Assembly: GCF_020567425.1 (NCBI RefSeq)
Contig: NZ_JAJCVJ010000001.1
Coordinates: 1,426,001-1,490,000 of the forward strand
Direction of reading: 5' to 3'
DNA: 64,000 bases
DNA from: Salinirubrum litoreum
GTDB lineage: Archaea; Halobacteriota; Halobacteria; Halobacteriales; Haloferacaceae
Below are positions 9,075 to 35,700 of the stretch, piece after piece. Every line of letters starts with the position of its first letter. Positions within the stretch are counted from its first letter, which is position 1. Made by a program: the position numbers and the translations under genes. Under the pieces are notes generated by a model. That model was not told where the DNA came from. It did no database searches and worked only from the letters and a program-made list of their open reading frames with translations.

Positions 9075-9457
9075 ACGCACGGTCAGGCGTGTAGCGTAAA
9101 ATATGATGTGGAAACGCGAACCACCGCACGGAGGGTTTATCCGGCGGATACGCGACGAACGACGCGCTCGGGAACGAGCCAGACAGCCGAACAGCCGTCG
9201 AGAGAAACCGCCAGACGACGAGGCGGTCACGACAGGCCACAACGCTTAATACCGGGAGAAGAATATGGCCCGGTGGCCTCGGTTCCGCCGACGGCCACGC
9301 AGTGGTCGGGAACGTGATCTCCAGCATACACATTTCACGTTCCTCAGCCGCTGTGCGAGGCGATACGCAGTTCGACGTGACACTATCTTTCGAGAGCCGT
9401 CAGTGGTCGGCGGCGTGAGCCGTGGCCGTCTGCGGTCGAGTCGACAGCCAGTCCTCG
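9075..9457. other. Gene-free interval, 383 bases
   Basis: This contains the promoter of the acyl-CoA dehydrogenase at its left edge. A + strand frame begins at 9265 with TATA-like CTTAATACC about 20 bases before it, but the product is Arg-rich and unlike its neighbours in codon use, so I do not call it. I see no RNA gene or repeat. Confidence 0.5.
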
Positions 9458-10177
9458 TCACCGGGGAGTGCCGGAGACCGTCGCCGTCATCCCGTGTTCC
9501 GTGGCCAGTCGCTCGATGTCCTCGACCGACAGTGGCTGGCGGGCCTCGCCGTCTTCGGTGACGCCGAGTGTCGCTCGCAGGTTTCGGGCAGTTCTCGTGT
9601 CGGTGGTCGGGAACGCGAACACGTAGAAGAACGGCTGGTTCGTCGGTTTCGCGGCGATCACGTCGACGGGTTTCCCGTCGAGGTGTTCGAACCCGGCGAA
9701 CAGCGACTCGGCACCGTCGCCGGCGACGAACTGCCACCACATGTCTTCGGGCGCGCGGAGCGACGACTGGAGGACGTGGACCTCGGCGTCGCCGTCGCCG
9801 GTCTCGACGGCCATACTCGCCCCGATCGGTTCGGCGACCTCCTCGTCGGCGGTCGCCCGCTCCCAGAGGTCGGCCGCCACCGACGGCGTCTTGTCGGTCT
9901 CGTGGACCAGCGTGAACGTCGGTTCCGCGACCACGGAGAGTTCGACGAACCGGCCGGGCGTGCCGGGGTAGATGCCCGCGTCGAGCAGCGCACCGACCGA
10001 CAGGTCGGCGACGACGTCGTCGAGTTCGTCGCCGTACTGGTCGGTGCCGACCCGGAGACAGCCTGCCAGGTCGAGTTCGTCGGGGACGACCATCGCCTCG
10101 CCGACCGGCCGAACCAGGAGTTCGCGGTCGCCGGTCGAGCGACCGATCACGCGCCACTCGCCGCGAATCGTCTTCAT
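9458..10177 (-). CDS. Conserved-looking haloarchaeal protein of unknown function
   Basis: Soluble acidic protein of 239 residues with no family I can name with confidence. It has regular strand-rich segments (G-E-W-R-V-I-G-R-S at the start, then F-V-E-L-S-V-V-A-E-P-T-F-T-L near 110 and P-F-F-Y-V-F-A-F-P near 185), and ends with a helix L-S-V-E-D-I-E-R-L-A-T-E-H-G-M. No signal peptide, membrane helix or metal motif is visible. Codon use is that of a true coding gene, with G/C at most third positions. The start ATG at 10177 has no longer alternative. The ferredoxin-like gene is divergent, 230 bases away. Confidence 0.7.
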   Translation of the reverse strand: MKTIRGEWRVIGRSTGDRELLVRPVGEAMVVPDELDLAGCLRVGTDQYGDELDDVVADLSVGALLDAGIYPGTPGRFVELSVVAEPTFTLVHETDKTPSVAADLWERATADEEVAEPIGASMAVETGDGDAEVHVLQSSLRAPEDMWWQFVAGDGAESLFAGFEHLDGKPVDVIAAKPTNQPFFYVFAFPTTDTRTARNLRATLGVTEDGEARQPLSVEDIERLATEHGMTATVSGTPR

Positions 10178-10384
10178 CGGTCGGCCTCCTCGTGAGAACT
10201 GTGAATCGTCATCGGAGATACGACGCCGACAGATACGATAAGTATGCTGTCACGACTGCTAGCACGGGCGTCAGGCACCGCGCAGGGCGACCCGACTCAC
10301 CCGGCCGCCGTCTGCGGTACGGTGGGCTTACTCGCGCCGCCGAGAGTCGGACTCGCGGGCGACGCCGACGAGAGACGGACTTAC

Positions 10385-10408
10385 ACACCTCGCTCCCGAA
10401 CGAGGTGT
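10385..10408. promoter_or_regulatory. Inverted repeat overlapping the start of the 2Fe-2S gene
   Basis: ACACCTCG (10385-10392) and CGAGGTGT (10401-10408) form a perfect 8-bp inverted repeat with an 8-base spacer, ending one base before the ATG at 10410. It could be an operator or an mRNA hairpin that affects initiation. Confidence 0.5.
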
Positions 10409-10409
10409 G

Positions 10410-10769
10410 ATGGCAGCAGACCAGACGACGGGAGACGACCCGCCGACCGCGACCGAGGTTCGCGTCACGGTGCGCCACGACGGCGCGGAGACGGTGCTGA
10501 CGACGACACCGGGCCGAAACCTGCGGAATCTCCTGCTGGACGCCGGTCTCTCGCCGTACACCCGACTGACGAGTCGGGCGAACTGCGGCGGGCGCGGCAT
10601 CTGTGCGACCTGTGGCGTCCGGATTCGAGAGGGGGCGGAGCCACCGAGTCACTGGCACGACCGACTGGCCGACCGGTTCGGCTACCCGCGACTCTCCTGT
10701 CAGGTGACCGTCGAGGACGATCTGACGGTCGAACTGCCGGAGAAACTGGTCTGGGGCGGGCGGGAGTGA
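10410..10769 (+). CDS. 2Fe-2S ferredoxin-like protein
   Basis: Electron-transfer protein of 119 residues with a plant-type [2Fe-2S] ferredoxin fold. The cluster ligands are visible as C59, C65 and C68 in ANCGGRGICATC and C97 in R-L-S-C, giving C-x5-C-x2-C plus a distant Cys as in the family. Between them sits a short insert with W-H-D-R-L-A-D-R-F-G-Y-P. It is shorter than the large acidic haloarchaeal ferredoxin and lacks that protein's N-terminal insertion, so it probably serves a specific reductase or monooxygenase rather than bulk metabolism. ATG 10410 is preferred to an adjacent GTG. The partner enzyme is not in the neighbourhood. Confidence 0.87.
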   Translation: MAADQTTGDDPPTATEVRVTVRHDGAETVLTTTPGRNLRNLLLDAGLSPYTRLTSRANCGGRGICATCGVRIREGAEPPSHWHDRLADRFGYPRLSCQVTVEDDLTVELPEKLVWGGRE

Positions 10770-10793
10770 TCGTCCGCGACCGTGTCCGGGGAG

Positions 10794-12005
10794 TCAGTCG
10801 TCGTCCTCGGTCCCGGCCTTCTCGGTGACCCGGAAGTCCTCCGGCGGGTCCACGACACCCAGCACCGTCCCCATCGAGTGGACCAGCGTGACCACCGGCG
10901 TCAGCGGGACCGCGAGCGCCCACGCGAGTTTGCTCCCGCCGTAGTAGGCGACCCCCCGGAGATACCAGAACAGCGTGGCGACCGCCAGACCGAGCGACGC
11001 GAGGGCGAACAGGCCACCGGAGACGACGGTGATCCCGAGTACCGACAGCGGGACGACGACGAGTGTGACGATCGGTGAGAGTGCCCACGCCGAGTTCCGG
11101 AAGCGTGTCAGCGCCCGGTAGTGGAGCGGGAGCATCGTCGCCGCCCGGAGGTTGCCGGCGGCCCACCGCCGACGCTGCTGGAGAATCTCGCCGAGCGACG
11201 GCGGGGCCTCGTTGCGACAGATCACGTCGGCGAGTTCGAAGTCGAGTTCCCGCTGTTGGGCGGCGGCCCAGACGAACGCGGTGTCCTCGACGAGCGTCTC
11301 GCGGTCCCACGTCACCTCGTCTTCCAACTCCTTCCGGACTGCGATGCCGCCGCCCCACGCGAACAGCGGGATCGAGAGGCGCGCGAAGGCGCGCTGTTCG
11401 AGTTGGACGCCCATCCGGAACACGTCCGCGAGGTACGACAGCACCGACCCGGTTCGGCGGGGCTTCTCGCGCAGTTGGACGACGCCGGCGTCCGGCAGGC
11501 CGGCGAACCGTTCCACGATGCTGTCCTCGTCGAGGTAGAGGACGTACTCCCGATCACAGGGGATGTGTCGACGGCCCCACTCCAGCGCTCGTCCCTTCCG
11601 TACGGCCGAACACTCGAACTCCTCGGGGACGACGTGGACCGTCGCCCCGTCGACGTCGATGGCGGCTTCGGCGATCACGTGGACGTCGGCGAGTTCCTCG
11701 GGGAGCGAGTCGACGGTCTGCTGGACGACGGACGCGGCGTCGACGGTCAGAATCCGGACCTGGACGGTCTCGCCGCCGTGGACCGCCTCGGGGATGTCGT
11801 ACCCCCGTCCGACGACGTAGGTCAACACGAGCCACACCACCGTCGCGGCGGCGAATAGAATCGTCGTCGCCCACAGCGAGGCGGCGAGCAGACCGGTGGC
11901 GTCTACCGCCGGGATGTCGAATCGCTGGCCCGGGACGAGCAGCGAGACACCGCCGACCACCAGCGCCGCTGTCACCGCGACGAGCGTGTAGCGTTCCACT
12001 TTCAT
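10794..12005 (-). CDS. Membrane glycosyltransferase, family 2
   Basis: Protein of 403 residues with two N-terminal membrane helices (about 5-25 and 40-65), a cytoplasmic GT-A domain and two or three C-terminal helices (about 305-385). Catalytic features are Y-L-D-E-D-S-I (the D-x-D-like metal site), the V-E-D-T-A-F acceptor motif and Q-Q-R-R-R-W, the Q-x-x-R-W signature of processive GT2 enzymes. It probably transfers sugar to a lipid or exported polymer at the inner face of the membrane. The substrate is unknown. The start at KVERYTLV gives a hydrophobic signal-anchor directly. It converges with the ferredoxin gene 24 bases away. Confidence 0.87.
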   Translation of the reverse strand: MKVERYTLVAVTAALVVGGVSLLVPGQRFDIPAVDATGLLAASLWATTILFAAATVVWLVLTYVVGRGYDIPEAVHGGETVQVRILTVDAASVVQQTVDSLPEELADVHVIAEAAIDVDGATVHVVPEEFECSAVRKGRALEWGRRHIPCDREYVLYLDEDSIVERFAGLPDAGVVQLREKPRRTGSVLSYLADVFRMGVQLEQRAFARLSIPLFAWGGGIAVRKELEDEVTWDRETLVEDTAFVWAAAQQRELDFELADVICRNEAPPSLGEILQQRRRWAAGNLRAATMLPLHYRALTRFRNSAWALSPIVTLVVVPLSVLGITVVSGGLFALASLGLAVATLFWYLRGVAYYGGSKLAWALAVPLTPVVTLVHSMGTVLGVVDPPEDFRVTEKAGTEDDD

Positions 12006-12191
12006 GCTGAAAACAGACAGCGTAACCACACACTTCAGTCTGTTCGCCGAACAGTTACTCCCCGAGTAGCTACGAACGTGACGGGGACCGGCGTCCGTGG
12101 AGAGCCGATCCGTCGGCGGGGTGGAAGGGCAGCGTCGGTGGAGAGCCGAGCACGTCGGCGGGGGCGGTGCGAGTGCGTCGGCGTGGCCGGG

Positions 12192-12413
12192 TCAGTCCCG
12201 GCGGACGAGCAGTGCGCCGACCGCGAGGACGGCCAGCGAGACGGCGACGCCGGGGAACGCCAGTGTCAGCGGGACGGCGGCGGTCGCGACGACAGTTCCG
12301 ACGAGGACCGGGAGCGAAGCCGGTGGTTGCGGTGCGTCGGTCGCCGACGCGGGGGCGGTGGTGCGGCGTGTGCGAGGCGGTTCGTGCGTGACGGGGTAGT
12401 GTTTCGACGACAT
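12192..12413 (-). CDS. Small membrane protein
   Basis: A 73-residue protein with a hydrophilic N-terminal half rich in Pro, Thr and Arg and a C-terminal hydrophobic region (about 33-70) long enough for two short membrane helices, ending A-L-L-V-R-R-D. No family is recognised. The basic tail would sit in the cytoplasm. A much longer frame exists upstream in phase, but it is Arg-rich and not protein-like, so I begin at the ATG of SSKHYPVTHEPP. Haloarchaea carry many such orphan membrane peptides. The function is unknown. Confidence 0.6.
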   Translation of the reverse strand: MSSKHYPVTHEPPRTRRTTAPASATDAPQPPASLPVLVGTVVATAAVPLTLAFPGVAVSLAVLAVGALLVRRD

Positions 12414-12532
12414 CTGTGAGGTTGTGGGCGGCGTGTGGTGGGTGAGCGGTTCGAGGTGAGTCGGCGGGCGGTTCGTCGGGTCGGCTGTCGGTGGTCGGGA
12501 CGGCGCGGCCCGCGGGCGACGAGTCGGTCGCG

Positions 12533-12835
12533 TCAGTCGTCCCGCGACACGTCGGCGTCGGCGACGCCGAAGCCCTCTCGCAGGAGTGCTTCGAGCGTCG
12601 CGTCGTCCGCGTCGGCGGTCTCCGCCGAGAGTCGGAGGTCGGCGGTCGCCTCGACGCGGAGGTCGTTCAGTCCGGGCGTGAGCCCACTGATCTCGACGTG
12701 TTCGACGTGCTCGACGACCGCGACCTTCCGGAGGCGGTCGTGGACACCGTCCGTGAGGTCGCCTCGGGCGTTCCGAGTGACCAGGACTTCGAGCGTCGCG
12801 CGAACCTGCACCGATCTGGATTGCTGGACTGCCAT
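12533..12835 (-). CDS. Small acidic protein of unknown function
   Basis: Protein of 100 residues with an N-terminal beta-rich part (S-V-Q-V-R-A-T-L-E-V-L-V-T), a middle V-E-H-V-E-I-S-G-L strand, a second strand pair L-R-V-E-A-T-A-D-L-R-L-S and an acidic helix at the end. This alternation is typical of a genuine small fold, and third-position GC is high. I do not recognise a family. Five bases before the ATG is the end of a GC-rich, foldable leader that resembles a tRNA only superficially. It lies downstream of a 43-residue frame on the same strand. Confidence 0.65.
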   Translation of the reverse strand: MAVQQSRSVQVRATLEVLVTRNARGDLTDGVHDRLRKVAVVEHVEHVEISGLTPGLNDLRVEATADLRLSAETADADDATLEALLREGFGVADADVSRDD

Positions 12836-13055
12836 CGCAGGCTCCCCGCGCGAGTCGAACGCGCGTGGGGTTCGCCGCCGTGCGCAGAGCCACACGGGCG
12901 GTCGGACCCCGCCACCGTAGGGGAGTGTGGGACGGCGTCGCCACTCGTCGTCCCGGGCGCTGTCGCTGGTCGGATCGCCGCCGTCGGCCGAACCGACGGT
13001 CGGGTGACACCGGTCGCGTCGTGAGTCGCCGGAGAAGAGGGACACTCGGACCCGC

Positions 13056-13090
13056 CGGTCCGCTTCCAGCGTGGCGAGAGAAGCGGACCG
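13056..13090 (-). terminator. Possible terminator hairpin after the 43-residue gene
   Basis: CGGTCCGCTTC (13056-13066) pairs perfectly with GAAGCGGACCG (13080-13090) around a 13-base loop. It begins 19 bases beyond the stop codon of the small gene read in this direction. No T-run follows, so a role in termination is only inferred from position. Confidence 0.4.
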
Positions 13091-13108
13091 CCCCGGCGTA
13101 CGCGTGGT

Positions 13109-13240
13109 CTACGCGACGACGGCGAAGCCGGACCGAGTGTCACGAAGGGTCCCGATCCAGCCTCCCATCGCATCGCGCAGATAGCCCACGCCCGGCTTCT
13201 CGGTGCCGAGCGGGGTCTGGATGCGTGGGAGTGGGATCAT
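13109..13240 (-). CDS. Putative 43-residue protein with a strong ribosome-binding site
   Basis: Short frame beginning MIPLPRIQTPLGTEKPGVGY and ending in T-R-S-G-F-A-V-V-A. The evidence for expression is a good Shine-Dalgarno sequence, GGAGGT, eight bases before the ATG, preceded by a TATA-like ACTATTAAG about 45 bases further up, and an 11-bp hairpin shortly after the stop. Composition is balanced rather than Arg-rich. No homologue is recognised. If real it would be cytoplasmic and could be a small regulator. The alternative is that this is a leader of the gene downstream. Confidence 0.4.
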   Translation of the reverse strand: MIPLPRIQTPLGTEKPGVGYLRDAMGGWIGTLRDTRSGFAVVA

Positions 13241-13348
13241 GTCGTGGAACCTCCGATCTGCGTACTTCTACGCTGAATGGGGAACATCTTAATAGTTTTG
13301 CAGGATTGACACGTTATGACATGACACGATTTCGGGTGTGTCGCGTGG

Positions 13349-13850
13349 GTCGTCACCCGGCGTGTCGGCTGTCGGTTCGGAACCCGGTCGTCGCAGTAGT
13401 CCCCCATCCTCCCCGACTGCCGACGCCCGGACTGCGAGCAGGTCCTCGCTGTCGCTCGGACACTGCTCGGTTCCGGTCGTCGCCAGTTCGCGTCCCGGCT
13501 GGCGTGAGTCGATCGGATGACGAGCGTTGCGTGCGATTCCGCACAGAAGCCGGCGCGCGAGAAACGCGCGAGGGAGGCGGGCGCTCTCGTGCGCCCGCCG
13601 AGGCTGGGGAGGACTGAGGTGCGGTCGCTGTCGCGGTGCGGTTCCTCGCGCTAGCACGAGTAGCGGTAGCGGTGGCGGATACTGTTGCGGTCGCGGTCGC
13701 AGTGGCGGATAGTGGTGCGGTCGCTGTATTGTCGTGGTCTGCAGTCGTTGTGCTGTCGCAGTTACGGTCGCTGTGCAGTCCCGGTCTGCGGTCGTAGTCG
13801 CCGTGCTGTCGCCAGTATCCTGCGGAACGTTCCCCGAAACCCACACCCCC
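13349..13850 (-). repeat. Dispersed non-coding repeat, copy B
   Basis: Reverse-complement relative of 2570-3077. Read on the minus strand it has the same order: degenerate CGACAG/GCGACCGC-type units, GCGCGAGGAACCGC, CCTCCCCAGCCTCGG, a hairpin, then GCACGCAACGCTCGTCA and the block with GACGACCGGAACCGA and GTCCGAGCGACAGCGAGGA, ending ACGCCGGGTGACGACC. The hairpin stem is GCGGGCGC/GCGCCCGC around ACGAGA. It differs in sequence from copy A at several paired positions yet remains fully paired. It lies immediately after the 3' end of the ornithine cyclodeaminase gene read on this strand. Confidence 0.75.
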
Positions 13851-22109: not shown

Positions 22110-22589
22110 CTACACCGAGAACTCGTACAGTTCGTCGCCGACGTGGTGGATGGATTCGACGACCTTCCCCGAGTCACCGACCATCTCGCTCCCGGCCACC
22201 AACGCCCGGCCGATTGCCAGCACCTTCCCGTGGGTCTCCTCGGCGATGGCGACGAGGTCGCCCGCCTCGATGTCCGGGTCGGCCTCGGTGATGCCCGGCC
22301 GCATCACGTCGGCACCGTCCGAGACGAACGAGATGGCACCGGCGTCGACCGTGACGACGCCGCGCTGTGGGGGGAACTCGTTCGCGCCGCGGACAGTGAG
22401 AAACGGCTCGTCGTCGACGTACAACACGAGGGGTTCGCCGTCGACGAGCACCAGATCGAACTCGGTGTCGGTCAGTTCCACGAGTTCGTAGGTGTCGCCG
22501 TCGGGGTCGACGCCGAGGCCGGCCGACAGGGCGTCGACGATGTCGTCGATCCCGTCGCTCCGGAGATGGTGTCGGGACTTGACTTCCAT
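22110..22589 (-). CDS. PUA-domain RNA-binding protein
   Basis: Protein of 159 residues in the MCT-1/Tma20-like archaeal family. The N-terminal half (M-E-V-K-S-R-H-H-L-R-S-D to about 75) is the pre-PUA domain. The C-terminal half is the PUA domain, with G-V-V-T-V-D-A-G-A-I, D-V-M-R-P-G-I (the conserved R-P-G-I turn), G-D-L-V-A-I and H-G-K-V-L-A-I-G. Related eukaryotic proteins act in ribosome recycling and start-site selection. The archaeal role is not proven. The neighbourhood is rich in RNA-related genes (FAU-1 convergent, RNB ribonuclease downstream on the other strand). Confidence 0.87.
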   Translation of the reverse strand: MEVKSRHHLRSDGIDDIVDALSAGLGVDPDGDTYELVELTDTEFDLVLVDGEPLVLYVDDEPFLTVRGANEFPPQRGVVTVDAGAISFVSDGADVMRPGITEADPDIEAGDLVAIAEETHGKVLAIGRALVAGSEMVGDSGKVVESIHHVGDELYEFSV

Positions 22590-22758
22590 ACCGACGACTG
22601 CGGGCGCTCGCCCGATAAATCGCCCGTTTGCCGACTCCGGTGTGACCGCTCGACGTCCCGGACGGAGTCACGCCGCGACCGCTCCCGCGTCGGCGTCCCG
22701 TGCGCCGGGCGTCAGACGCGGAACAAACGCTAAGTAACCCCGGACCGTGCCAGCTATC

Positions 22759-23061
22759 ATGTGGCGTTCCCGGACCAACCGGGACCGGAAAGCGGTCGTC
22801 TGTATCGCCTGCGGAACGGACGTGCTGCGGAGCGAGGCGCGCGAGTACGACAAGCACGGCGACCGCTGGGACCGGCACGGGAAGGAGTTCGAACACCTCT
22901 GTAAACCCTGCTACCGGGAGCTGTGTCACCAGCCGCGTGACGAACTCGAGTCGCTCCTCGTCGGCATCGAGACCGACGGGCAGAGTCGAGACGACTTCCT
23001 GGCCGAGTACCTCGGTGCCGTCGAGGAACGGTACGGCTCGCCCGAGGAACCGGAGTCGTAG
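22759..23061 (+). CDS. Small zinc-ribbon protein
   Basis: Protein of 100 residues with one C-x-x-C pair near the start (V-V-C-I-A-C-G-T-D, residues 15-18) and a second (H-L-C-K-P-C-Y-R-E-L-C, about 48-56), which together could bind one zinc. Between them is a charged stretch rich in Arg, Asp and His. The C-terminal half is an acidic helix. Such haloarchaeal proteins are of unknown function and may bind nucleic acid or another protein. The ATG at 22759 is the first codon that yields the family-like M-W-R-S-R-T. It precedes the RNB gene by 92 bases on the same strand. Confidence 0.77.
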   Translation: MWRSRTNRDRKAVVCIACGTDVLRSEAREYDKHGDRWDRHGKEFEHLCKPCYRELCHQPRDELESLLVGIETDGQSRDDFLAEYLGAVEERYGSPEEPES

Positions 23062-23153
23062 CCCGACGACCCGTCTCCTGTCTGAGTCCGACCGAACACA
23101 GTCGACACCGCCGGCCCGACACGACTAACTGTCCCACCCTCGAAGCCGGAGGT

Positions 23154-24461
23154 ATGTCGAACGATCAGGCCCACGCCGGAACCGCCGAAGGGCAAGGGCC
23201 GGTGCGGATCACGTCGGAGATCGACAGACACCTCGAGAACAAACGCGAGGAACTGTTTGAGGAGTTCGAGATCGCCGACGCGTTCCCCCCGGAGGTCCTC
23301 CGTGAAGCCGAAGCCCGCACCGAAGACGTGCAAAACGAGATCCAGTCGGAGGTCGACGAACGCACGGACCTGCGCGACCTGACGACGTGGACGACCGACC
23401 CCGCCGACGCGCAGGACTTCGACGACGCCATCTCCATCGAGAAGGGAGAGGAGACGTACACGCTGTGGGTCCACATCGCCGACGTGACCCACTACGTCCA
23501 CCCCGAGTCGGAGATGTGGGCCGAGGCCGTCCGCCGGGGCAACACGGTCTACCTGCCGGGCTACACGATCCACATGCTCCCGCCGACGCTCGCCGAGACG
23601 GTCTGTTCGCTCGTCCCGAACGAGGACCGACTGGCCCACACCGTCGAGATGACGCTGGACCGGGAGAACCTCTCCTTCGAGAACATCGAGATCTACAAGT
23701 CCGTCATCGAGTCGGACGAGCGCCTGACGTACACGCAGTGTGAGAACCGACTGGACGACGAAGACGCCCCCCTCCACGACGAGGCGACCCTCGCGTTCGA
23801 ACTCGCCGACCAGATGCACGAACAGCGCAAAGAGGACGGGAGTCTCGTCTTGAACCCCTCGCGGGACCGCGCCCACACCATCATCGAGGAGTGCATGCTG
23901 AAGGCGAACAAGGCCGTCACGCACGTCCTGATGTGGAACCGTGGCGTCGAGGCGATGTACCGCGTCCACCCGCAACCGACCCCGGACCAGTGGGACAAGG
24001 CGCTGAAGGAGATCATGGAACTCGACGGCGTCTCCATCCCGAGCGGTTCGTGGGACGACCCCCGGAAGTCGGTCAACGCGGCGTTAGAGTCCGCGCCGCC
24101 GCGCGCGCTCAACAAGATCCAGCGTGCCGTGCTGAAGGTGATGCCCCGCGCGAAGTACATGAACGACCCCTTCGGCGGCCACCACGCGCTGAACTTCGAC
24201 ATCTACGGCCACTTCACCAGTCCGATCCGCCGCCTCTCCGATCTGATCAACCACTGGATCGTCCACGAGAACGACGTGCCCGAAGACCTGATCCAGTTGT
24301 GTGACCGCGCCTCCGACCGCCAGAAGGACGCCGAGACCGCAGAACGCCTCTACAAGCAGTTCATGGAGGAGATCGGTCTCGACCCCTACGCCGTCAACTC
24401 CCGTGGCGTCGAGGTCGTCGACGACGACGAGATCGACGACGAAGACGGTATCGAGTACTGA
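23154..24461 (+). CDS. RNB-domain exoribonuclease (RNase II/R family)
   Basis: Processive 3'-5' exoribonuclease-type protein of 435 residues made almost entirely of the RNB catalytic domain. The active-site stretch T-D-P-A-D-A-Q-D-F-D-D-A-I-S (about 81-94) contains the clustered Asp residues that bind magnesium, followed by Y-T-L-W-V-H-I-A-D-V-T-H-Y-V. Other signatures are R-R-G-N-T-V-Y-L-P, M-L-P-P-T-L-A-E, and F-T-S-P-I-R-R-L-S-D-L-I-N-H near 365. Bacterial RNase R also has cold-shock and S1 domains, which are missing here, as is usual for haloarchaeal members. The tail is acidic. Confidence 0.92.
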   Translation: MSNDQAHAGTAEGQGPVRITSEIDRHLENKREELFEEFEIADAFPPEVLREAEARTEDVQNEIQSEVDERTDLRDLTTWTTDPADAQDFDDAISIEKGEETYTLWVHIADVTHYVHPESEMWAEAVRRGNTVYLPGYTIHMLPPTLAETVCSLVPNEDRLAHTVEMTLDRENLSFENIEIYKSVIESDERLTYTQCENRLDDEDAPLHDEATLAFELADQMHEQRKEDGSLVLNPSRDRAHTIIEECMLKANKAVTHVLMWNRGVEAMYRVHPQPTPDQWDKALKEIMELDGVSIPSGSWDDPRKSVNAALESAPPRALNKIQRAVLKVMPRAKYMNDPFGGHHALNFDIYGHFTSPIRRLSDLINHWIVHENDVPEDLIQLCDRASDRQKDAETAERLYKQFMEEIGLDPYAVNSRGVEVVDDDEIDDEDGIEY

Positions 24462-27337: not shown

Positions 27338-27416
27338 CTCCGTGGACGTCGACTGCCGTCGGATTCACAGGAGGGTAGGCGAGTTCACTGGTCGGGTGAA
27401 CGACGTGACCGAGAGA

Positions 27417-27447
27417 AGTGGACTCGCCGGGATTTGAACCCGGGGCC
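27417..27447. repeat. Left attachment repeat (partial tRNA-Ala 3' end)
   Basis: 31 bases identical to 35627-35657: the discriminator base, the 3' acceptor strand, the T-arm and two further bases of the tRNA, plus two bases of 3' trailer (AGTGGACTCGCCGGGATTTG begins the repeat). The sequence beyond it to the right does not continue as a tRNA, so it is the copy created by integration. Confidence 0.9.
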
Positions 27448-27521
27448 ACTTCGCCGTCGGGCGATTCCGCCCTCCGGCCACCGCCGCTGAAGGCACTGTT
27501 CCGCCACAGGTGACGGAGCCA

Positions 27522-28529
27522 ATGAAACTGAAGCCAACGCCCCCACGAGACGCACTGACCCGATACCTCCGAGACAAGCGAACCCACGTCTCGGCGAAAT
27601 CGGTCGCCAATTACAAATCCACCCTCCAACGGTTCTGCGACTGGTTAGACGACAACGGAATCCACGACCTGCGCGACCTCGACAGCGAGATCATTCAACA
27701 GTACACCGAGTACCGACTTGAGAGTATCAAGCCGATCAGCGCGCGCAACGACCTGCGGACCATCACCAACTACGTCCGCTTCTGCGAATCAGTCAACGCC
27801 GTCCCCCAAGGTCTCGGAGACCTCATTCGCATCCCTCGCGTTCCCGAAGAAGACGAGGTAAACGACTCACTGCTCACGAAAGAGGAAGCCGACGCGATAC
27901 TCCCGCACCTCGCAAAGTTCGAGTACGCGAGCGACCGCCACGTCATCGTCCTGATCCTGTGGAAGACAGGCATGAGGATAAGCGGCCTTCGCGCGTTAGA
28001 CGTGACCGACTTCGATGACGCGCGTCCGGCCCTCGCCGTTCGACACCGACCGGATACCGGAACGCCCCTCAAGCGGCGAAGCAAGGGGGAACGAGACGTA
28101 CTGATCGCCCAAGCTACCGCCGACGTGATCCGCGACTACATCCGGCAGAACCGCCCGGACGTCACCGACGAGTACGACAGAGAGCCGCTTATCGCCACAG
28201 ACCACGGGCGGATCGTTCGCACCGGGATACAGCGGCACGTCTACACCGCGACCCGACCGTGTACGTACAACGGCGGGGACTGCCCGTTCAAAGACGATCC
28301 TGCCGACTGCGGAGCGATGACGTGGAATACTGCCTCGAAGTGTCCCGGCTCAGTCAGCCCTCACGCACTCCGCCGGGGCTACGTGACTGCCGCCCGGAAC
28401 GCGGGACAGCCGAAGGACGTCACAGGCGAGCGAGTCAACATGAGCGGGCGGGTTCTCGACAAGCACTACGACAAGGGAAATCACGCAGACAAGGCAGAAC
28501 GGCGACGGGAGTTCATCAGAGACGTATGA
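27522..28529 (+). CDS. Tyrosine recombinase/integrase
   Basis: Site-specific recombinase of 335 residues, encoded 74 bases inside the left att repeat. The N-terminal SAM-like core-binding domain (about 10-95) has the usual S-x-x-S-V-A-N-Y-K-S-T-L helix. The catalytic domain carries R152 in K-T-G-M-R-I-S-G-L, a Lys/Arg-rich beta turn near 185, H281-x-x-R284 in S-P-H-A-L-R-R-G, and the nucleophile Y316 in V-L-D-K-H-Y. Four cysteines at about 247, 254, 263 and 274, just before the His box, look like a zinc-binding insert. A GTG four codons upstream is an alternative start. It is the likely agent of integration and excision of this element. Confidence 0.93.
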   Translation: MKLKPTPPRDALTRYLRDKRTHVSAKSVANYKSTLQRFCDWLDDNGIHDLRDLDSEIIQQYTEYRLESIKPISARNDLRTITNYVRFCESVNAVPQGLGDLIRIPRVPEEDEVNDSLLTKEEADAILPHLAKFEYASDRHVIVLILWKTGMRISGLRALDVTDFDDARPALAVRHRPDTGTPLKRRSKGERDVLIAQATADVIRDYIRQNRPDVTDEYDREPLIATDHGRIVRTGIQRHVYTATRPCTYNGGDCPFKDDPADCGAMTWNTASKCPGSVSPHALRRGYVTAARNAGQPKDVTGERVNMSGRVLDKHYDKGNHADKAERRREFIRDV

Positions 28530-28619
28530 CTCCTGCCGATGCGGTTCCCCGTAGCAGTGAACACACACCCGATCAGACCGCAGAGCAACGGTCAAATATT
28601 ACAACAGAGAAACACTAAC

Positions 28620-29237
28620 ATGGTTGAACACACCCCACACCCGGACGACTACCACGCCAACGACGAACTCGAAAAGAACAGCCCGCTCACCGACAAGGAA
28701 CGCGAGGTATTCCGGAACAAAATCCGGAACGTCGTCCTCGGTGTCGAAGAAGAAACGACCCTCGGGGAGATCGAGTACCACGGTATCAGCTCGATTACTC
28801 TGCGTTCGTTCCGTGATGAATCCACCCTCACCGTCTCAGTCTACGTTGACGCAGACGAAGCAGACGTAGAGGTCGATCCGGCCCACATCTTCGGCGAGGA
28901 AGTCAAGGTCACTGACTCAGCGGAGGCGTACTATCTTCGGGACCTCGGTGACGATTGGGAGGCTCTTGAGTTCGTGATCCTCAACGATCTCGTCATGTTG
29001 CTCGACCTTCCCGAGACACCCTCGGAACTGGCCGACTACCTGCTCGACGGGGAGAAGCATGGCACCTGTCTCGTCTGTGGGACACGGATGCCGGACTCAG
29101 CCGAGTTTGGCGTTGTTGCCACTATCCCGGAGACGACGCGGAGAATCTACGAAAATGCGGAATTTGAACTCGCTCGGAACCTCCGCATACCGATTGACGG
29201 GGCGCAGGCGTCCGACGACTCCGACTCGCAGGAATAA
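28620..29237 (+). CDS. Unrecognised element-borne protein, 205 residues
   Basis: Acidic protein with no family I know. The N-terminal half is a charged helix (E-L-E-K-N-S-P-L-T-D-K-E-R-E-V-F-R-N-K-I) followed by beta strands (S-S-I-T-L-R-S-F-R-D-E-S-T-L-T-V-S-V-Y-V). One C-x-x-C pair (T-C-L-V-C-G-T-R) lies near 145, with a helical acidic end. The ATG at 28620 follows a TATA-like CAAATATT about 25 bases upstream, so it seems leaderless and independently transcribed from the integrase 90 bases before it. It could be an accessory or regulatory gene of the island. Confidence 0.7.
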   Translation: MVEHTPHPDDYHANDELEKNSPLTDKEREVFRNKIRNVVLGVEEETTLGEIEYHGISSITLRSFRDESTLTVSVYVDADEADVEVDPAHIFGEEVKVTDSAEAYYLRDLGDDWEALEFVILNDLVMLLDLPETPSELADYLLDGEKHGTCLVCGTRMPDSAEFGVVATIPETTRRIYENAEFELARNLRIPIDGAQASDDSDSQE

Positions 29238-29314
29238 CACGGGCCGGCAGTCAGAATAGGTGCGATTGGGAGCGTGTGATCGAAACTTGACCGGGGAGAT
29301 CGGTTAGCTTCGGT

Positions 29315-29569
29315 CTACCACGGCTGGTCTCCCTCAGGAGTTCGGAAGACCTCATTTTCAATGTCATTGGTAGCCGGGAGCCACTCGCCTTCTTCGACTA
29401 ACGCCTCGAATTCCCCACGAGGGTACTCGTACAACATCCCCGGAGATGGACCAACAAGACGCACCTCGTCTTCGCCCAGCGTCATCTCGTAGAACACCGG
29501 CTCACCCTCTGACTGAGGACCGAGTGCGCCTTCCCACTCACCGAGGTCCACGTTCGCTGTATCTGACAT
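29315..29569 (-). CDS. Unrecognised small acidic protein, 84 residues
   Basis: Very acidic short protein beginning M-S-D-T-A-N-V-D-L-G-E-W-E-G and ending T-P-E-G-D-Q-P-W. Predicted strands (V-F-Y-E-M-T-L-G-E-D-E-V-R-L-V-G) alternate with turns. No motif is recognised. It is transcribed divergently from the restriction-modification gene with 161 bases between, and might be a controller, but there is no helix-turn-helix to support that. A longer frame runs upstream; I began at the ATG after which composition becomes haloarchaeal. Confidence 0.55.
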   Translation of the reverse strand: MSDTANVDLGEWEGALGPQSEGEPVFYEMTLGEDEVRLVGPSPGMLYEYPRGEFEALVEEGEWLPATNDIENEVFRTPEGDQPW

Positions 29570-29696
29570 ACCCGCAGGTACACTTGGTTCACTCAAATCA
29601 GTTTGGTTGGTTCCGGGATCGGTGGCCTGCTGGGTCTGAGTCGAACAGTATTCCTCGGAAATCAAGAACACCCGCCCCCGGACGAACGTGATAGTG

Positions 29697-29706
29697 GGAT
29701 TATTTA
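29697..29706 (+). promoter_or_regulatory. TATA box of the restriction-modification gene
   Basis: ATTATTTATG lies 25-34 bases before the ATG at 29731, the spacing expected of a leaderless haloarchaeal transcript. This favours 29731 over the ATG at 29719 as the start. Confidence 0.55.
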
Positions 29707-29730
29707 TGCACCGTCTCAATGGTTCGTACT

Positions 29731-32700
29731 ATGTCTGCCGCCTCCGGTTTCGCCGACTCACTCCGGGCAATCGGGGAGAGTGCCAACCCCGACATGAGCG
29801 AACGAGACGTAGAGAACCTGTTTACAGAGAATAACTTCTACAGCGCGCTTGACTACGAGGGGACCGGCGTGGACCTCCGGAGTGAAATGAGCCTGCCGGA
29901 CAACAAGCGACCGGACTACGTGACCCTCGACACGAACGAGTCCGTCACGGCAGTCTACGAGTTCAAGACGACTGATCGAGACCTCGGCCCGCACGAGGAT
30001 CAGTTGTTCCACTACGTTGACGAACTCAAAGCGAAGTACGGCATCCTCACCAACGGACAGGAGTTCCGGCTGTACGCCCGAGACGGTCACTCCCGGATCA
30101 CCAGCTTCCGACTCGCAGATGCAACCGACTCCGACGCGGCCAATCTCCGATCCGCGCTCCGGAAGCCCGAGTGGGACATTGGTGACTCCGAGAACGTCAA
30201 CCAGTACCTCTCCGAGCTTGAGGAAGTGAGTCTCGCCGGGGAACTCGGACAGGAACACTTCTTCGACACCTTCCGCTTAGACGACGGGAGTCCCTTCGCC
30301 GATCTCGTGACCGCGATGACCGACCTGCTCGGAGAACTCCGCGACGAGCAGGAAGCCAAGTTCGTGAAGGGTGCCTACGACTTCTGGGAAGCCAGCTACG
30401 CCAGCGTGCCCAACGAGACGCCGAGTTCGTGGGAGCCGTTCATCGACGGGAAGCAGTCACTCCGGGACTTCATGTTCTGCTTGGAGTCCGGTCACGCCCT
30501 TCTCGCTCGGTTATTACTCGCCAAAGCGACCGAGGACCACGACTTCTTCCGCAGTGACCGGGGACTTGAGCGATACTTCCGCGAACTCGGGGACTTCTCC
30601 GGGCAGATCGACCTCGACGCCTACCCCATCGCCGCAAACGGGATGATCGAGGATATGCGGAAGCAACTCGTCGAGAGTCTGTTCGAGGACGACATCTTCA
30701 TCTGGTGGACCGACGGCTACGGCGAGCAGACCGCGAGTCAGCACGAAGACCCGTTCAATCGGTTCAAGGACGTGGCAAAAGAAGGGAGTGACGTCACGAA
30801 GGTCAGTGCCGCGACCCGCCAGCGGTTCAGCCGGGCGATTGCTCGGGTGTCCTTCGCCGTTCTGAAATTCGACTTCTCCCGGATCGAGGGCGACCCGCTC
30901 GGCGATCTGTACCAGCGATACTTCGATCCGGAGACCCGGAAGGCACTCGGGGAGTTCTACACGCCACAGCCGGTGATCGACTACATCATGGACGGCGTGG
31001 GGTACGACCGGGGCGTCTCGTCGGAGCGGATCATCGACCCGTCGTGTGGGTCCGGGACGTTCCTCGTGGAAGCCCTGAATCGGTACATCGAGGACGTGAA
31101 ACGATACGACGACAATCCGGATTGGGCCGCAGAGTTGACCGAGTTGTGTTCCCGGCCCCGGATCGTCGGACTTGACATACATCCGTTCGCCGTCCTCATG
31201 GCACAGATTCGGTTCATGGTGACGATCCTGCCCGAATACAAGCAGGCGAAGCGACAGGACGACTCGTTCACGATCCACCGCCTGCCGATCTTCCGGACCG
31301 ACACCCTCAGGAACGAGCGGGAGTTGACCGGAGCAGATATCGGCGACGACGGGCAGACCCAGATGACCTTCGACGCAGTGACGGAGGACAATCAGGACGT
31401 GCGGATTCCCGTGCCCCTGCCCATCGAAGTAGAGGAAGGCGAGGTCCCAGAGTCGAACCGGGAAGGCGAGTTCCTCGTTCAGCGCGTTCGGATGCCGAAG
31501 TTCGAGACGCTGAAGCTCAACTCCGAGGTCCGGAACTTCGGGGAGTATTTCGCCGCACTACAGGGCGTCCTCGACGTGGTGAAGTACCACATGAGCGAAG
31601 GAATGTGGGAGTACCGTGGCGGGCTGAAACAGGGCGTGAACCGGTACACGACGCGAGAGTACGACGGCGTGGAGGACTTCTTCGCGCCCTACGTGGACGA
31701 CATTCTCGACACGGTACAGTATCTCCGGGAGGACCACGGCGACGGACGTCTGTTCAAGATGTTCGAGGACACGGTTCTCGCACTCGTGGTCAAGAACTAC
31801 ATGGAGTACGATTACGTCGTCGGGAACCCGCCCTACGTTCGCATTCAGAACCTCCCGGACGACCAGAAAGCCATGCTCGATAGCCTGTACGACTCCACCA
31901 CAGGAAACTATGACCTGTACTGTCCGTTCTACGAGCGCGGACTTGAGTGGTTGGCGGAAGGCTCCGGGAAGCTCGGATACATCACACCCAACCAGTTCAT
32001 GGTCACGGACTACGGGGAGGGGCTTCGTCGAGTGCTACTGCGCGACTCCCGGCTCAAGGAGGTGTACGACTTCCGGGACTCGGGTGTGTTCAAAGACGCA
32101 ACGAACTACCCCGCTATCGTGATCGCCGAGGACGAACCGGATGCGGACGCCCGGAACGAGAACGACATTCGGTGCGTCCGAGTGAAGGCGAACGTGGAAG
32201 ACGACACGGGCCGAGAGTTAGACGACGAGATCATTCAGGCCGTTCGGGATCATCGTGGTGAGCCGGGATATTCCGACGAGTTCATCGACGTCTTCGACTT
32301 CCCGCAGGGGGAACTTGACGATGGATACTGGTCGCTGATGCCGCCCGAAGAATTGGAGGTGTTCAAGAAGTTAGAGCGACAAGCAGATCATAGAATTGAC
32401 ACCATTACCGACGATGTTTCGCATGGGACCCAGACAAGTGCAAACACAGTCTACGTAGTCGATGTTCTTGATGCCGAAAGAATCGAGTCGGGGGACGTTG
32501 GTGAAACCGTCACGATAGTCCCGTCTGGTGGATCAGGAAGATACGAAATCGAAACCGACCTTCTAAGGCCGTGGCTTCAGGGCCGTGACGTACAACGCTG
32601 GCGGGCGGAGTGGTCTGGGCAACACGTCGTTCTCCCCTACGAAATTGAGCGCACTGATGATGAACTAGATGTGTCACTCATGAGCAAGGCGACTCTGCGG

Positions 32701-33609
32701 GAAGATTATCCTCTGGCATGGGACTTCTTCAAAGATCATGAAAAGAAACTCCGAGGTCGGGAAGGAGGTCGATGGGAAAATAGCGACCAGTGGTGGGAGT
32801 TTGGTCGTCCCCAGAACTTGGAGAAATTCGAGATACCAAAGATAATTTTCGCTCATATCAGTACGGACTCAACGTTTATGCTCGATGAAGTTGGGACGTG
32901 GTACTACAAGACAGCGTATTCCGTTCTGCTTGCAGACAGTTATCGTGACCTCACGGACGAGATGGCCTGCCAACTCAATGCGAAGGCGCTCGATTTCTAC
33001 TTCAAACACATCACGACAGTCAAGGCCGGTGGATACTACGAATATCGCTCGCAGTACGTCGAGAAACTCCCTTCAATCATTTCGGATGACAACGGAGAGT
33101 TTGCCCTGCTGAGGGAGAAGGCAGGAGAAATTACAGACACAATCGACCTACAGAGCCGAACCGAACGCTTCCCGGAAGCCTACCTCGGAGAGTACGACAG
33201 CGACCTCGAATACATCGACTACGAGTGGCAGACGCGCCGCTACCCGGTAAACGCAGACATTCAGCAACTCGCGGACGGACGCTTCGCAGTCACGGCAGGT
33301 CGGTCGGACGAGATCACCGATCCGCGACTCGATACCGGGGACCGCGAGGATCGCAAGCTCCGAGCGAAGTACGTCCACGCCGCTGTGGATGGGCGGAACG
33401 TCAAGAGTGGCGAGGAAATGACGATCCCGATCCCCGCGACCAGTGACGGCGTTCGAGAGCTACTGAGCCGACTCGAAGACGACCGCGATACTGTCAAAAA
33501 CACTGATATCGACGCTCTCGAAGCCGAGATCGATCAGGCGGTGTACGATATGTTCGAGTTGACGGAAGACGAGCGAGAGGTTATCGAGGACTACTTAGAG
33601 GTCTTCTAA
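29731..33609 (+). CDS. Single-chain restriction-modification protein, Eco57I-like (type IIG)
   Basis: Protein of 1292 residues that combines all parts of a type IIG system, marking and cutting DNA through one recognition domain. The N-terminal nuclease-like domain shows a P-D-(D/E)xK pattern: P61-D62 in R-P-D-Y-V and E77-F-K79 in V-Y-E-F-K-T. A helical connector follows. The N6-adenine methyltransferase has motif I at D436 (D-P-S-C-G-S-G-T-F) and catalytic motif IV at N699 (N-P-P-Y). The rest, from about 870 to 1120, is a TaqI/Eco57I-like target-recognition region (R-P-W-L-Q-G-R-D-V-Q-R-W). No partner methylase or specificity gene is nearby. A BREX PglX methylase is less likely, because the nuclease motif is present and no other BREX gene is. 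Confidence 0.88.
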   Translation: MSAASGFADSLRAIGESANPDMSERDVENLFTENNFYSALDYEGTGVDLRSEMSLPDNKRPDYVTLDTNESVTAVYEFKTTDRDLGPHEDQLFHYVDELKAKYGILTNGQEFRLYARDGHSRITSFRLADATDSDAANLRSALRKPEWDIGDSENVNQYLSELEEVSLAGELGQEHFFDTFRLDDGSPFADLVTAMTDLLGELRDEQEAKFVKGAYDFWEASYASVPNETPSSWEPFIDGKQSLRDFMFCLESGHALLARLLLAKATEDHDFFRSDRGLERYFRELGDFSGQIDLDAYPIAANGMIEDMRKQLVESLFEDDIFIWWTDGYGEQTASQHEDPFNRFKDVAKEGSDVTKVSAATRQRFSRAIARVSFAVLKFDFSRIEGDPLGDLYQRYFDPETRKALGEFYTPQPVIDYIMDGVGYDRGVSSERIIDPSCGSGTFLVEALNRYIEDVKRYDDNPDWAAELTELCSRPRIVGLDIHPFAVLMAQIRFMVTILPEYKQAKRQDDSFTIHRLPIFRTDTLRNERELTGADIGDDGQTQMTFDAVTEDNQDVRIPVPLPIEVEEGEVPESNREGEFLVQRVRMPKFETLKLNSEVRNFGEYFAALQGVLDVVKYHMSEGMWEYRGGLKQGVNRYTTREYDGVEDFFAPYVDDILDTVQYLREDHGDGRLFKMFEDTVLALVVKNYMEYDYVVGNPPYVRIQNLPDDQKAMLDSLYDSTTGNYDLYCPFYERGLEWLAEGSGKLGYITPNQFMVTDYGEGLRRVLLRDSRLKEVYDFRDSGVFKDATNYPAIVIAEDEPDADARNENDIRCVRVKANVEDDTGRELDDEIIQAVRDHRGEPGYSDEFIDVFDFPQGELDDGYWSLMPPEELEVFKKLERQADHRIDTITDDVSHGTQTSANTVYVVDVLDAERIESGDVGETVTIVPSGGSGRYEIETDLLRPWLQGRDVQRWRAEWSGQHVVLPYEIERTDDELDVSLMSKATLREDYPLAWDFFKDHEKKLRGREGGRWENSDQWWEFGRPQNLEKFEIPKIIFAHISTDSTFMLDEVGTWYYKTAYSVLLADSYRDLTDEMACQLNAKALDFYFKHITTVKAGGYYEYRSQYVEKLPSIISDDNGEFALLREKAGEITDTIDLQSRTERFPEAYLGEYDSDLEYIDYEWQTRRYPVNADIQQLADGRFAVTAGRSDEITDPRLDTGDREDRKLRAKYVHAAVDGRNVKSGEEMTIPIPATSDGVRELLSRLEDDRDTVKNTDIDALEAEIDQAVYDMFELTEDEREVIEDYLEVF

Positions 33610-33780
33610 CACCCATACTCTCCCTCAAGTTACCACCTATACAGGAACTGCCACCAATGGCGGAAGCCCGCCATGTGATCTCCCGCTACGCAATCGTCAG
33701 CGGTTCTGATCGGTCTTACCGGAAATGGTACTTTGCCGTGACTTAGATGGTTAGGCCCAGTAGGGTGTTCTGTAGAATGT

Positions 33781-34635
33781 CTACGCTTCGCCGCGAACAC
33801 CCTGATCCGAATCAATCAAGGGTTGTTCCGGTGGACTCAGTGCCCTCTTGTCTTGTTCGACCTGTTCGGTTGCTTCGCTTCCTTCACTATACACCATAGA
33901 AGGGGGTATATATACCTCACCAGACTCGATCTCTGCAGACCACTCCGGTTCCACCCACGGCAGGGGTTCTTCATCCCTGACATACGGGATGTAGTGGCGA
34001 TCTCGAACGGCCCTCGGGAGTGCATAATAGGTGAAATCCCCACGTCTTCCGCTGTTGAGGTAGCGATTGAATTGCTTTTCATACTGCCTGTACGGCACAT
34101 CACAATCTTTTAACATTTGTCTCAATACGGGATCTAATTTCTCCTTCTTTAAACGCGAACTGACTTTTCGTCGGTCATCTTTCTTTAGACGGGGGTCTTC
34201 GTACATCGCAATCGCAGACTCAAATAGAACCGTCAGCTCAATCGAAACACCAGACTTGTTGTGCTTCTTACTAAGAACTCGATCACATATTCGACTTCGC
34301 AGATAAGTGTCCAAGTGTAGGTGATCGGTGATGATCAGGGTCCGATATAGTTTGAAGTAGAAACCACCCTTGCTTCGGTCGCCCCACAGTTCATAGTGGA
34401 GATGTGGTTTTTCGACATTCCGTTTTTCGCTGAACTTGAAGCCCCGATTATGCTTGTCAAGTCGCTTCCATTTTCCGGGTTCGCCCGGTGGGTCGTACTT
34501 TGATTTGGTTGAGAAATCAGTGCGGTGAGCCGGAATCCGGGTTTTGTGCTTTTGTATCGCTTCTTCATCCCGGCGGGCTTCACAGAGGGCTTTCCAATCG
34601 ATCCAACGTACAGAGTTGTGACTGTTTGATGTCAT
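33781..34635 (-). CDS. Unrecognised orphan protein of low GC
   Basis: Protein of 284 residues unlike its neighbours: Lys- and Arg-rich, A/T-rich codons and many aromatic residues. The N-terminal half contains W-I-D-W-K-A-L-C-E-A-R-R-D-E-E, then H-L-H-Y-E-L-W-G-D-R-S-K-G-G-F-Y-F-K-L-Y-R. A basic helical stretch (D-P-R-L-K-K-D-D-R-R-K-V-S-S-R-L-K-K-E-K-L-D) follows near 150-175, and the last 50 residues are acidic and disordered. This could suit nucleic-acid binding, but no family is recognised. The minus-strand AATAAATTT lies 10-18 bases before the ATG, too close for a normal TATA box. It has clearly been acquired with the island. Confidence 0.7.
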   Translation of the reverse strand: MTSNSHNSVRWIDWKALCEARRDEEAIQKHKTRIPAHRTDFSTKSKYDPPGEPGKWKRLDKHNRGFKFSEKRNVEKPHLHYELWGDRSKGGFYFKLYRTLIITDHLHLDTYLRSRICDRVLSKKHNKSGVSIELTVLFESAIAMYEDPRLKKDDRRKVSSRLKKEKLDPVLRQMLKDCDVPYRQYEKQFNRYLNSGRRGDFTYYALPRAVRDRHYIPYVRDEEPLPWVEPEWSAEIESGEVYIPPSMVYSEGSEATEQVEQDKRALSPPEQPLIDSDQGVRGEA

Positions 34636-35626
34636 TTTACAAATTTATTTGCGAATAGCCAATTCAAAGGTAGAAGGATGGAGCAGTGGCTCGCTGACTA
34701 TTCTCACACATCTATACTCAGGAGACATAATAAAGCTATCTGTCGCGCTATGCTACTCACAATAGCACACTGTCAGAGGGAATCTAATCGGTATTTCAAA
34801 GTGACGAGGACTCCCGCCGGCGCTTCCGCGAGCTAACCGAGTATCAATAGCGTGTATGCTACCGGTTTCAACGCTGGCGTAGATCGCGGGAGACCCGGCC
34901 AATAGGACACCCGAAATTCTACAAAAAATTTGAGACCGGGTAACACCGTTCCCGGAGCAGAGATTTGAATGGTGTCACAACCCCCCTCCCCCGGTCTGTA
35001 GCGATAGTATCTGAACAGACGATCAATCATACTGGGGGGAGTACGGAACGCCAGCAGGAGGGACCGAAAGCGACTGGGAGAGATTGTAGGGCGACCTGCG
35101 ACCGGCTCTGAATCAGTGAGAGAATCTGGGATCGGCTTCCCCTGAGAGACGACAGATGGGCAGATGCCGGGGGCGCTTCCGGGAACCGGCAGAGAGGTTC
35201 GACCAGTCAACTGCGCACCCCGCCTATGGAGTTTTGAGGCGAGTCGGAGTTGTGGGCACCACACAGGCGGCTTCCGCGATCCGAACCGGGACTCGACCGA
35301 TCAACCTCGCGCGGGATAGGATGATGTATCGAGACAGGAGATGACGGTCAGTGCGCCCACCGTTCGACAGCAATCGTCGGTACTCGGTCGGGATCACGCA
35401 CCCCGGCGAAGACAAGGCGGATTCCGGCGCGCCTTCCGGACTCGACGCAGTATCATTTCGGATAACCGCACGACGTAGTGGCAACGCGCCCGCTGACGGG
35501 TTCAGATGTGTCGCAGACAGTACCGGCAAGAGAGGCACTCTGACGGGTTTGAATCGCGTCTGAAACCACAGAAACAGCTATATCGATGCGGTGCCGTACA
35601 GCGAATAGGAACGGTGCGCGAAGCGC
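34636..35626. other. Gene-free part of the island
   Basis: About 990 bases between the orphan gene and the right att repeat. Frames here have mixed composition and none looks like a protein. Two imperfect direct repeats of about 45 bases sit at 35173-35220 and 35268-35315; both contain CTTCCG and TCGACC-N2-TCAAC. They might bind the integrase or another element protein. The stretch 34640-34800 is markedly A/T-rich. Confidence 0.5.
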
Positions 35627-35657
35627 AGTGGACTCGCCGGGATTTGAACCCGGGGCC
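35627..35657. repeat. Right attachment repeat inside tRNA-Ala
   Basis: The second copy of the 31-bp core. It lies within and just beyond the 3' end of the intact tRNA gene, so integration left the tRNA functional. Confidence 0.9.
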
Positions 35658-35700
35658 TCTTCCTTGCGAAGGAAGCGATCTGCCACTGATCTACGAGCCC
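35629..35700 (-). tRNA. tRNA-Ala, anticodon CGC
   Basis: Seventy-two bases on the minus strand fold as a standard tRNA: acceptor GGGCTCG/CGAGTCC with one G-T pair, a D-arm with AGATCAGTGGCAGATC, an anticodon arm CTTCC-TTCGCAA-GGAAG giving anticodon CGC (reads GCG, alanine), and a T-arm containing GGTTCAAATCC. The discriminator is A and CCA is not encoded. Its 3' end is the integration target of the 8.2 kb element. Confidence 0.95.

Follow-up and report, generated by a model that had tools for sequence, protein, structure and literature searches.

Anatomy of an island in tRNA-Ala(CGC)

A 64,000-nt stretch of the Salinirubrum litoreum genome (contig NZ_JAJCVJ010000001.1, positions 1,426,001 to 1,490,000; hereafter the window, to which positions refer unless another locus is named) contains an island of ~8.2 kb (27417–35657) bounded by exact 31-nt direct repeats, one at the 3' end of an intact transfer RNA (tRNA) gene, tRNA-Ala(CGC), and the other a displaced copy of that end (Table 1). 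Similarity between the two ends extends past the exact core (93% identity over 41 nt, 27412–27452 versus 35622–35662), and no third copy occurs in the window when up to 4 mismatches in 20 nt are allowed. An exact 31-nt repeat ending in an intact tRNA is far beyond chance. The GC content is ~0.57 within the island and ~0.66 outside. A previous reading of this DNA from its letters and open reading frames (ORFs) only (the sequence-only reading) had proposed the tRNA-derived repeats, the intact tRNA at the right-hand copy, and the change in base composition, all of which were recovered here. Direct repeats of a tRNA 3' end at both boundaries together with a restored functional tRNA are the features that identify a tRNA-targeting island.

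From the left repeat, the island encodes an integrase (+), p2 (+), p3 (-), a type IIG restriction-modification (RM) enzyme (+), and p5 (-), followed by a gene-poor stretch of ~1 kb. This preserves most of the gene map drawn by the sequence-only reading, with amended starts for the RM gene (most likely 29731) and for the minus-strand gene of 84 aa (29569), and with the segment 34636–35626 now considered to lack a convincing gene. A scan for sigma-70-type promoters and terminators was uninformative for an archaeon.

The gene starting ~75 nt from the left repeat matches two tyrosine recombinase domains in Pfam (Phage_integrase, E 1.1e-6; SAM-like domain, E 1.4e-6) and an integrase family in PHROGs (E 3.3e-25), in agreement with the integrase previously placed at this position. 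An integrase lacking catalytic residues would have spoken against site-specific integration, and the full set (R152, K184, H281-x-x-R284, and H315-Y316) is present and invariant in an alignment of 12 sequences, such that the element carries a complete recombinase beside its attachment site.

The cargo protein described earlier as type IIG-like possesses the Pfam domains Eco57I, N6_Mtase, and TaqI_C; an HSDR_N nuclease domain is borderline (E 2e-5; 25.0 bits, cut-off 25.1). Its PD-x14-E-x-K, DP[SA]CGSGTF, and NPPY motifs do not vary across 45 homologues. One polypeptide unites the nuclease, methyltransferase, and target recognition domains, the defining arrangement of type IIG enzymes, and methylation and cleavage are predicted from knowledge of the family. 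The nearest solved relatives by sequence, the BseCI methylase and RM.BsaXI, have in common with the island enzyme the methyltransferase and specificity domain of the Eco57I/BseCI group (matches to 7qw5, E 3.6e-21, and 8w0p, E 5e-7), but identity is low and the N-terminal nuclease part is covered by no matched solved chain. Related type IIG genes on pHV4 of Haloferax volcanii (HVO_A0006/HVO_A0237) are split fragments (PMC4389544), whereas the island enzyme is intact. Assignment to bacteriophage exclusion (BREX) was considered and rejected, as the enzyme scored 152 bits against the PglX cut-off of 400 bits and no other BREX gene was found among the island ORFs.

Table 1. Features of the island and its integration target in the window
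Feature	Positions	Strand	Basis
Left attachment repeat (displaced copy of tRNA-Ala 3' end, 31 nt exact)	27417..27447	-	Repeat and tRNA comparison
Tyrosine recombinase (integrase), 335 aa; alternative GTG start at 27510	27522..28529	+	Pfam, PHROG, alignment
Gene p2, 205 aa, one CxxC pair, ORFan; upstream ATG at 28539 possible	28620..29237	+	Library searches
Gene p3, 84 aa, divergent from RM gene, ORFan	29315..29569	-	Library searches
Type IIG RM enzyme, 1292 aa	29731..33609	+	Pfam domains, motif conservation
PD-x14-E-x-K nuclease motif, RM residues 60-82	29908..29976	+	D62, E77, K79 invariant in 45 homologues
Methyltransferase motif I DPSCGSGTFL (S-adenosylmethionine binding)	31036..31065	+	Conserved in homologues
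Methyltransferase motif IV GNPPYV (adenine-N6)	31822..31839	+	Conserved in homologues
Target recognition domain, variable swapped part, residues 810-1160	32158..33210	+	Core versus domain trees
Gene p5, 284 aa, marginally similar to a family of predicted TFIIB-like cyclin fold recurring beside the enzyme family	33781..34635	-	Profile search
~1 kb without convincing gene; adjoins the attachment site (attP) in the presumed excised circle	34636..35626	.	ORF inspection
Right attachment repeat (3' end of functional tRNA gene)	35627..35657	-	Repeat and tRNA comparison
tRNA-Ala(CGC), intact, integration target	35628..35700	-	ARAGORN; Rfam 68.8 bits

Flanking synteny and related islands at the same tRNA

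The genes of the right flank (rhomboid, a 102-aa protein, and EF-1alpha) adjoin the same tRNA-Ala(CGC) in several relatives, and the left-flank genes at 22113–22667 and 22941–24458 occur on the other side of this tRNA in several relatives that lack the island. Both flanks are syntenic around the tRNA without the island in, e.g., L152, L144, L148, L150, and L154, with the left gene as close to the tRNA as 0.7 kb (L152, the closest; 2.7 kb in L144), while in other relatives the gap is filled with different DNA. At the level of synteny, the empty site sought by the sequence-only reading is therefore present in other genera, both within the family and elsewhere in the order, and the outcome it had considered damaging, identical cargo between the same flanks in all relatives without attachment repeats, is not what the relatives display. 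That the region is ancient and fixed in the chromosome, its tRNA-like repeat arising by chance, can practically be dismissed: nothing was found in its favor, and the exact 31-nt match, the synteny without the island, and the patchy distribution are opposed to it.

In Halolamina, Haloparvum, Halobellus, and two further genomes (L074, L081, L090, L098, and L104), tRNA-Ala(CGC) likewise hosts an integrase and the same RM family, bounded by repeats of 32–34 nt, and is thus a recurrent target. These islands resemble that of the window in tRNA, repeat type, RM family, and a related integrase, but are larger (10.4–14.7 kb versus 8.2 kb), have integrases that form a separate clade, carry the RM gene in the same orientation as the tRNA, and differ in cargo, including GmrSD in L081 and AlbA_2 in L104. 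The nearest relatives of the window integrase are those of elements at tRNA-Thr(CGT) (L077 and L112; 61–64% identity, compared with 53–55% to the integrases of other tRNA-Ala(CGC) elements), and the gene order of the window island is also that of L077 and L112, from which it follows that the target tRNA probably changed at least once among these integrase lineages.

Several observations accompany these islands. In L081 (10001–16105), the GmrSD-type, modification-dependent nuclease shares a tRNA island with a type IIG enzyme. A small SWIM zinc-finger gene is present in the RM islands L074 (7305–7832) and L112 (6991–7464), and ORFs related to it occur in L099 and L067. Two scaffolds of Halorubrum salinum GX71 (L077 and L078) carry the same tRNA-Thr(CGT) island, with identical RM protein and feature positions, reflecting either a duplication or an assembly artefact.

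Nature of the element

The island is very probably a small, non-autonomous integrative defence island, inserted in a tRNA gene and carrying a one-protein RM system. No virion or replication gene was recognized in it with Pfam, NCBIfam, PADLOC, or PHROGs; capsid, portal, terminase, and replication genes, as expected of a temperate tailed virus (Hafunaviridae), have no counterpart, and the only weighty matches are to integrase and methyltransferase/endonuclease families. The sequence-only reading had likewise favored a minimal defence island over a virus, an interpretation that stands with the caveats that activity is predicted and that the enzyme family also occurs in temperate HF2-type viruses.

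The tyrosine recombinase would have inserted a circular form of the element at the 3' end of tRNA-Ala(CGC). Because the incoming element would supply a duplicate of this end, the tRNA remains functional, and the 31 nt that were displaced would mark the far boundary. As no recognizable replication, transfer, or virion gene is present, the island presumably moves passively, whether through fusion or mating of cells, through transformation, or in a virus that packages it, and then integrates. The enzyme, with a putative layout of N-terminal PD-(D/E)XK nuclease, central N6-adenine methyltransferase, and C-terminal target recognition domain, would protect the host chromosome by methylating its own sites and cut incoming unmethylated DNA. 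Loss of the island may be penalized too, because methylation would be diluted before the nuclease is gone. Restriction and defence activity, excision, and transfer of the island are all predictions from its sequence.

RM genes are well established as selfish elements, and it is possible, if somewhat unlikely, that the system serves the element more than the host, either through stabilization by post-segregational killing or through the exclusion of elements that compete for the same tRNA. The tRNA-Ala(CGC) gene is indeed contested by several elements (an integrase lies near it in genome G016 and two in G007), but the sequence cannot separate this role from defence; both may hold, and the two are compatible.

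Some points weigh against a defence island. A further genome of this genus was not found, so that the empty-site comparison stops at synteny and gain or loss within the species is not visible, and the mannosyltransferase gene to the left of the island does not adjoin the tRNA in the relatives examined. In addition, p2, p3, and p5 are unplaced, and a replication or transfer gene may have escaped detection among them. This last point leads to the alternative of an integrated small plasmid or satellite, to which the three genes, the gene-poor 1-kb stretch, and a primase-like gene in island L079 lend some substance. Such an origin appears quite unlikely, as no Rep, helicase, primase, or relaxase was matched in Pfam, NCBIfam, or PHROGs and the fold of the presumed p5 family (in which membership of p5 is marginal) points to a transcription factor rather than a replicase.

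The three genes that the sequence-only reading could not place have no match in Pfam, NCBIfam, PADLOC, or PHROGs; the defence-database search it had proposed for the cargo thus recognized none of p2, p3, or p5. Neither p2 nor p3 was found in 195 genomes of the order apart from their own, with only a short similarity of p3 (53% over 36 aa) to the island of G007 (L098/L060). Against a profile of the p5-family, ORFs of ~210 aa without a Pfam domain that are found beside several type IIG genes and in virus HCTV-6, p5 is a marginal match among all locus ORFs (E 0.029) and is not matched in a genome search at E 0.001. Members occur at L081 (8534–9154), L112 (5727–6362), L117, L099, L111, L091, L071, L130, L140, and L123 (9049–9528), and a remote, mostly single-copy chromosomal homologue (L186, L187) is present in many genomes of the order. 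The p5-family could not be named through a library match, and no name could be assigned to the homologue either. Its AlphaFold model has a predicted local distance difference test (pLDDT) score of 81, a best Foldseek match of E 0.46, and similarity to the TFIIB cyclin repeat (VIA-align Z ~10 over 96 residues, middling for a helical fold). The TFIIB-like assignment is a suggestion from the fold only, by which p5 might conceivably be a transcription factor of the element. Searches of p5 against phages and plasmids, and of the L112 member against phages, returned no match.

Two replicon types were considered and set aside. HLH-like stretches in p5, together with published work on Rep-Arvir (PMC13107129), had raised the idea of a rolling-circle replicase; p5 is unmatched in Pfam, NCBIfam, and PHROGs, the family to which it may belong is predicted to adopt a TFIIB-like cyclin-box fold, and its own single-sequence model reaches a pLDDT of only 37. 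A Rep-Arvir (DUF7845) replicon was rejected because p2, p3, and p5 match no Pfam family, the PF25227 replication initiator included.

The enzyme in haloviruses and exchange of its recognition domain

RM enzymes have been reported previously in tailed viruses of archaea (PMC8651126), and the island enzyme is 67% identical over its full length to that of HF1/HF2-type viruses (18 records) and 58% identical to that of HRTV-9. The Hafunaviridae enzymes (HF2 HrrHF2_460 and HCTV-7 gp41) resemble it in motifs and in their place beside an integrase and a tRNA-derived attP: the HF2-type viruses possess, in order, the integrase, a tRNA-Thr attP, a small ORF, and the same RM enzyme, and the HF2 record annotates the tRNA-Thr sequence, adjoining the RM enzyme and integrase, as a probable attP. 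The virus differs from the island in size (76 kb against 8 kb), in its remote integrase lineage, and in its tRNA-Thr target. HF1-like proviruses integrate at tRNA-Thr, and this variable region may have captured host chromosomal genes (PMC7230728). Given this arrangement and the published integration, the island could be a remnant or satellite of such a virus, in which abortive excision or deletion left an integrase and RM gene at the tRNA. This is nevertheless highly unlikely. The window integrase resembles that of HF2 only remotely (profile E ~1e-5) and uses tRNA-Ala, no other viral gene was detected in the island by PHROG search, and the window enzyme groups with neither viral lineage; direct descent from an HF2-type virus is largely refuted.

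Trees of the enzyme core (residues 1–780) and of the recognition domain (residues 810–1160) conflict with strong support. A well-supported clade of 21 sequences that holds L098, L099, L102, and L103 excludes the HF2/HCTV-7 core, while the HF2/HCTV-7 recognition domain groups with these same chromosomal genes (98/90); the L104 core lies inside the 21-sequence clade and its recognition domain pairs with L107 (100/100). In HRTV-9 the recognition domain has been replaced (~26% identical), and the virus pairs with a chromosomal contig, L084, which may be part of a provirus, in both trees; the similarity of recognition domains is 88% for HRTV-9 and L084 and 61% for HF2 and L098/L102. The trees thus place the two viral lineages apart from each other amid the cellular sequences, and recognition domains have been exchanged independently of the rest of the enzyme.

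A different type IIG gene lies beside an integrase in another genus of the Hafunaviridae, in Haloarcula virus HCTV-6 (Mincapvirus; L123, 4041–8241).

Association of the enzyme family with tRNA genes

Relatives of the RM enzyme were found in 61 of 392 genomes of the order at E 1e-50, with ~44 (1 in 9) holding a relative of >55% identity. A tRNA lies in the flanks (mean total 16 kb) of 38 of 50 sampled, non-duplicate RM loci, compared with ~10 expected at 1 tRNA per 75 kb (binomial ~1e-17; the genome of the window has 44 tRNAs in 4.06 Mb), and in 32 of the 38 the RM locus faces the tRNA 3' end; the loci come from two possibly overlapping genome collections, with one duplicate pair (98.5% identity) amongst the compared proteins, and the counts are approximate. 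As a control, six of 17 distant type IIG loci were near a tRNA (Fisher p 0.0035). A copy of the tRNA 3' end is present beyond the RM gene in 19 sampled loci, or 20 with the window, involving eight tRNA types (Ala(CGC), Val(CAC), Thr(CGT), Thr(GGT), Glu(TTC), His(GTG), Leu(TAG), and Gly(TCC)), and three of the 20 (L096, L099, and L106) are bracketed by two whole tRNA genes.

Low-GC genomic islands with an integrase, hypothetical genes, and RM genes have been described in Halorubrum ezzemoulense (in part of PMC11078007), traits shared by the window island; that portion of the account describes mostly Type I and II systems and not this family or a tie to tRNA genes. As RM systems on integrase islands of haloarchaea have also been published elsewhere (PMC4389544), the island is one clean further example of known tRNA-integrated RM islands, and what specialists might pursue is the link of the whole family to tRNA 3' ends, its presence in viral attachment regions, and the one-gene cassettes. 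Should methylomes bear out the link to tRNA 3' ends, the sharing with temperate viruses, and the reassortment of the recognition domain across lineages, these would amount to a concrete route of exchange between host defence and viral counter-defence genes, as was proposed for the variable region near attP in the HF1 group (PMC7230728).

A broader and speculative proposal, which probably does not hold, is that the RM family is a specialized tRNA-3'-end traveller of haloarchaea that moves between chromosomal tRNA islands, with several recombinase lineages, and att-proximal regions of temperate tailed viruses, swapping its specificity domain, with an integrase-less, one-gene cassette of ~4.2 kb between tRNA-3' repeats (L102), presumably mobilized in trans, as its smallest form.

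The L102 locus (9186–13544; genome G128) has an RM-only cassette of ~4.25 kb at tRNA-Leu(TAG). A tRNA-3' scar at +96 precedes the type IIG gene, a copy of the tRNA 3' end (24/25 nt) lies 142 nt past the stop codon, and no recombinase is present inside. A similar-looking RM cassette occurs at tRNA-Gly(TCC) in Natronorubrum texcoconense (L072). At L070, L072, L073, L083, L093, L095, L102, and L115, one or two copies of the tRNA 3' end, ~60–110 nt apart, immediately follow the tRNA on the side of the RM gene, a pattern that would fit repeated integration and decay of elements at this spot. Elsewhere in the window, ARAGORN made a tRNA call with an odd four-base anticodon (ctct) at 12840–12926.

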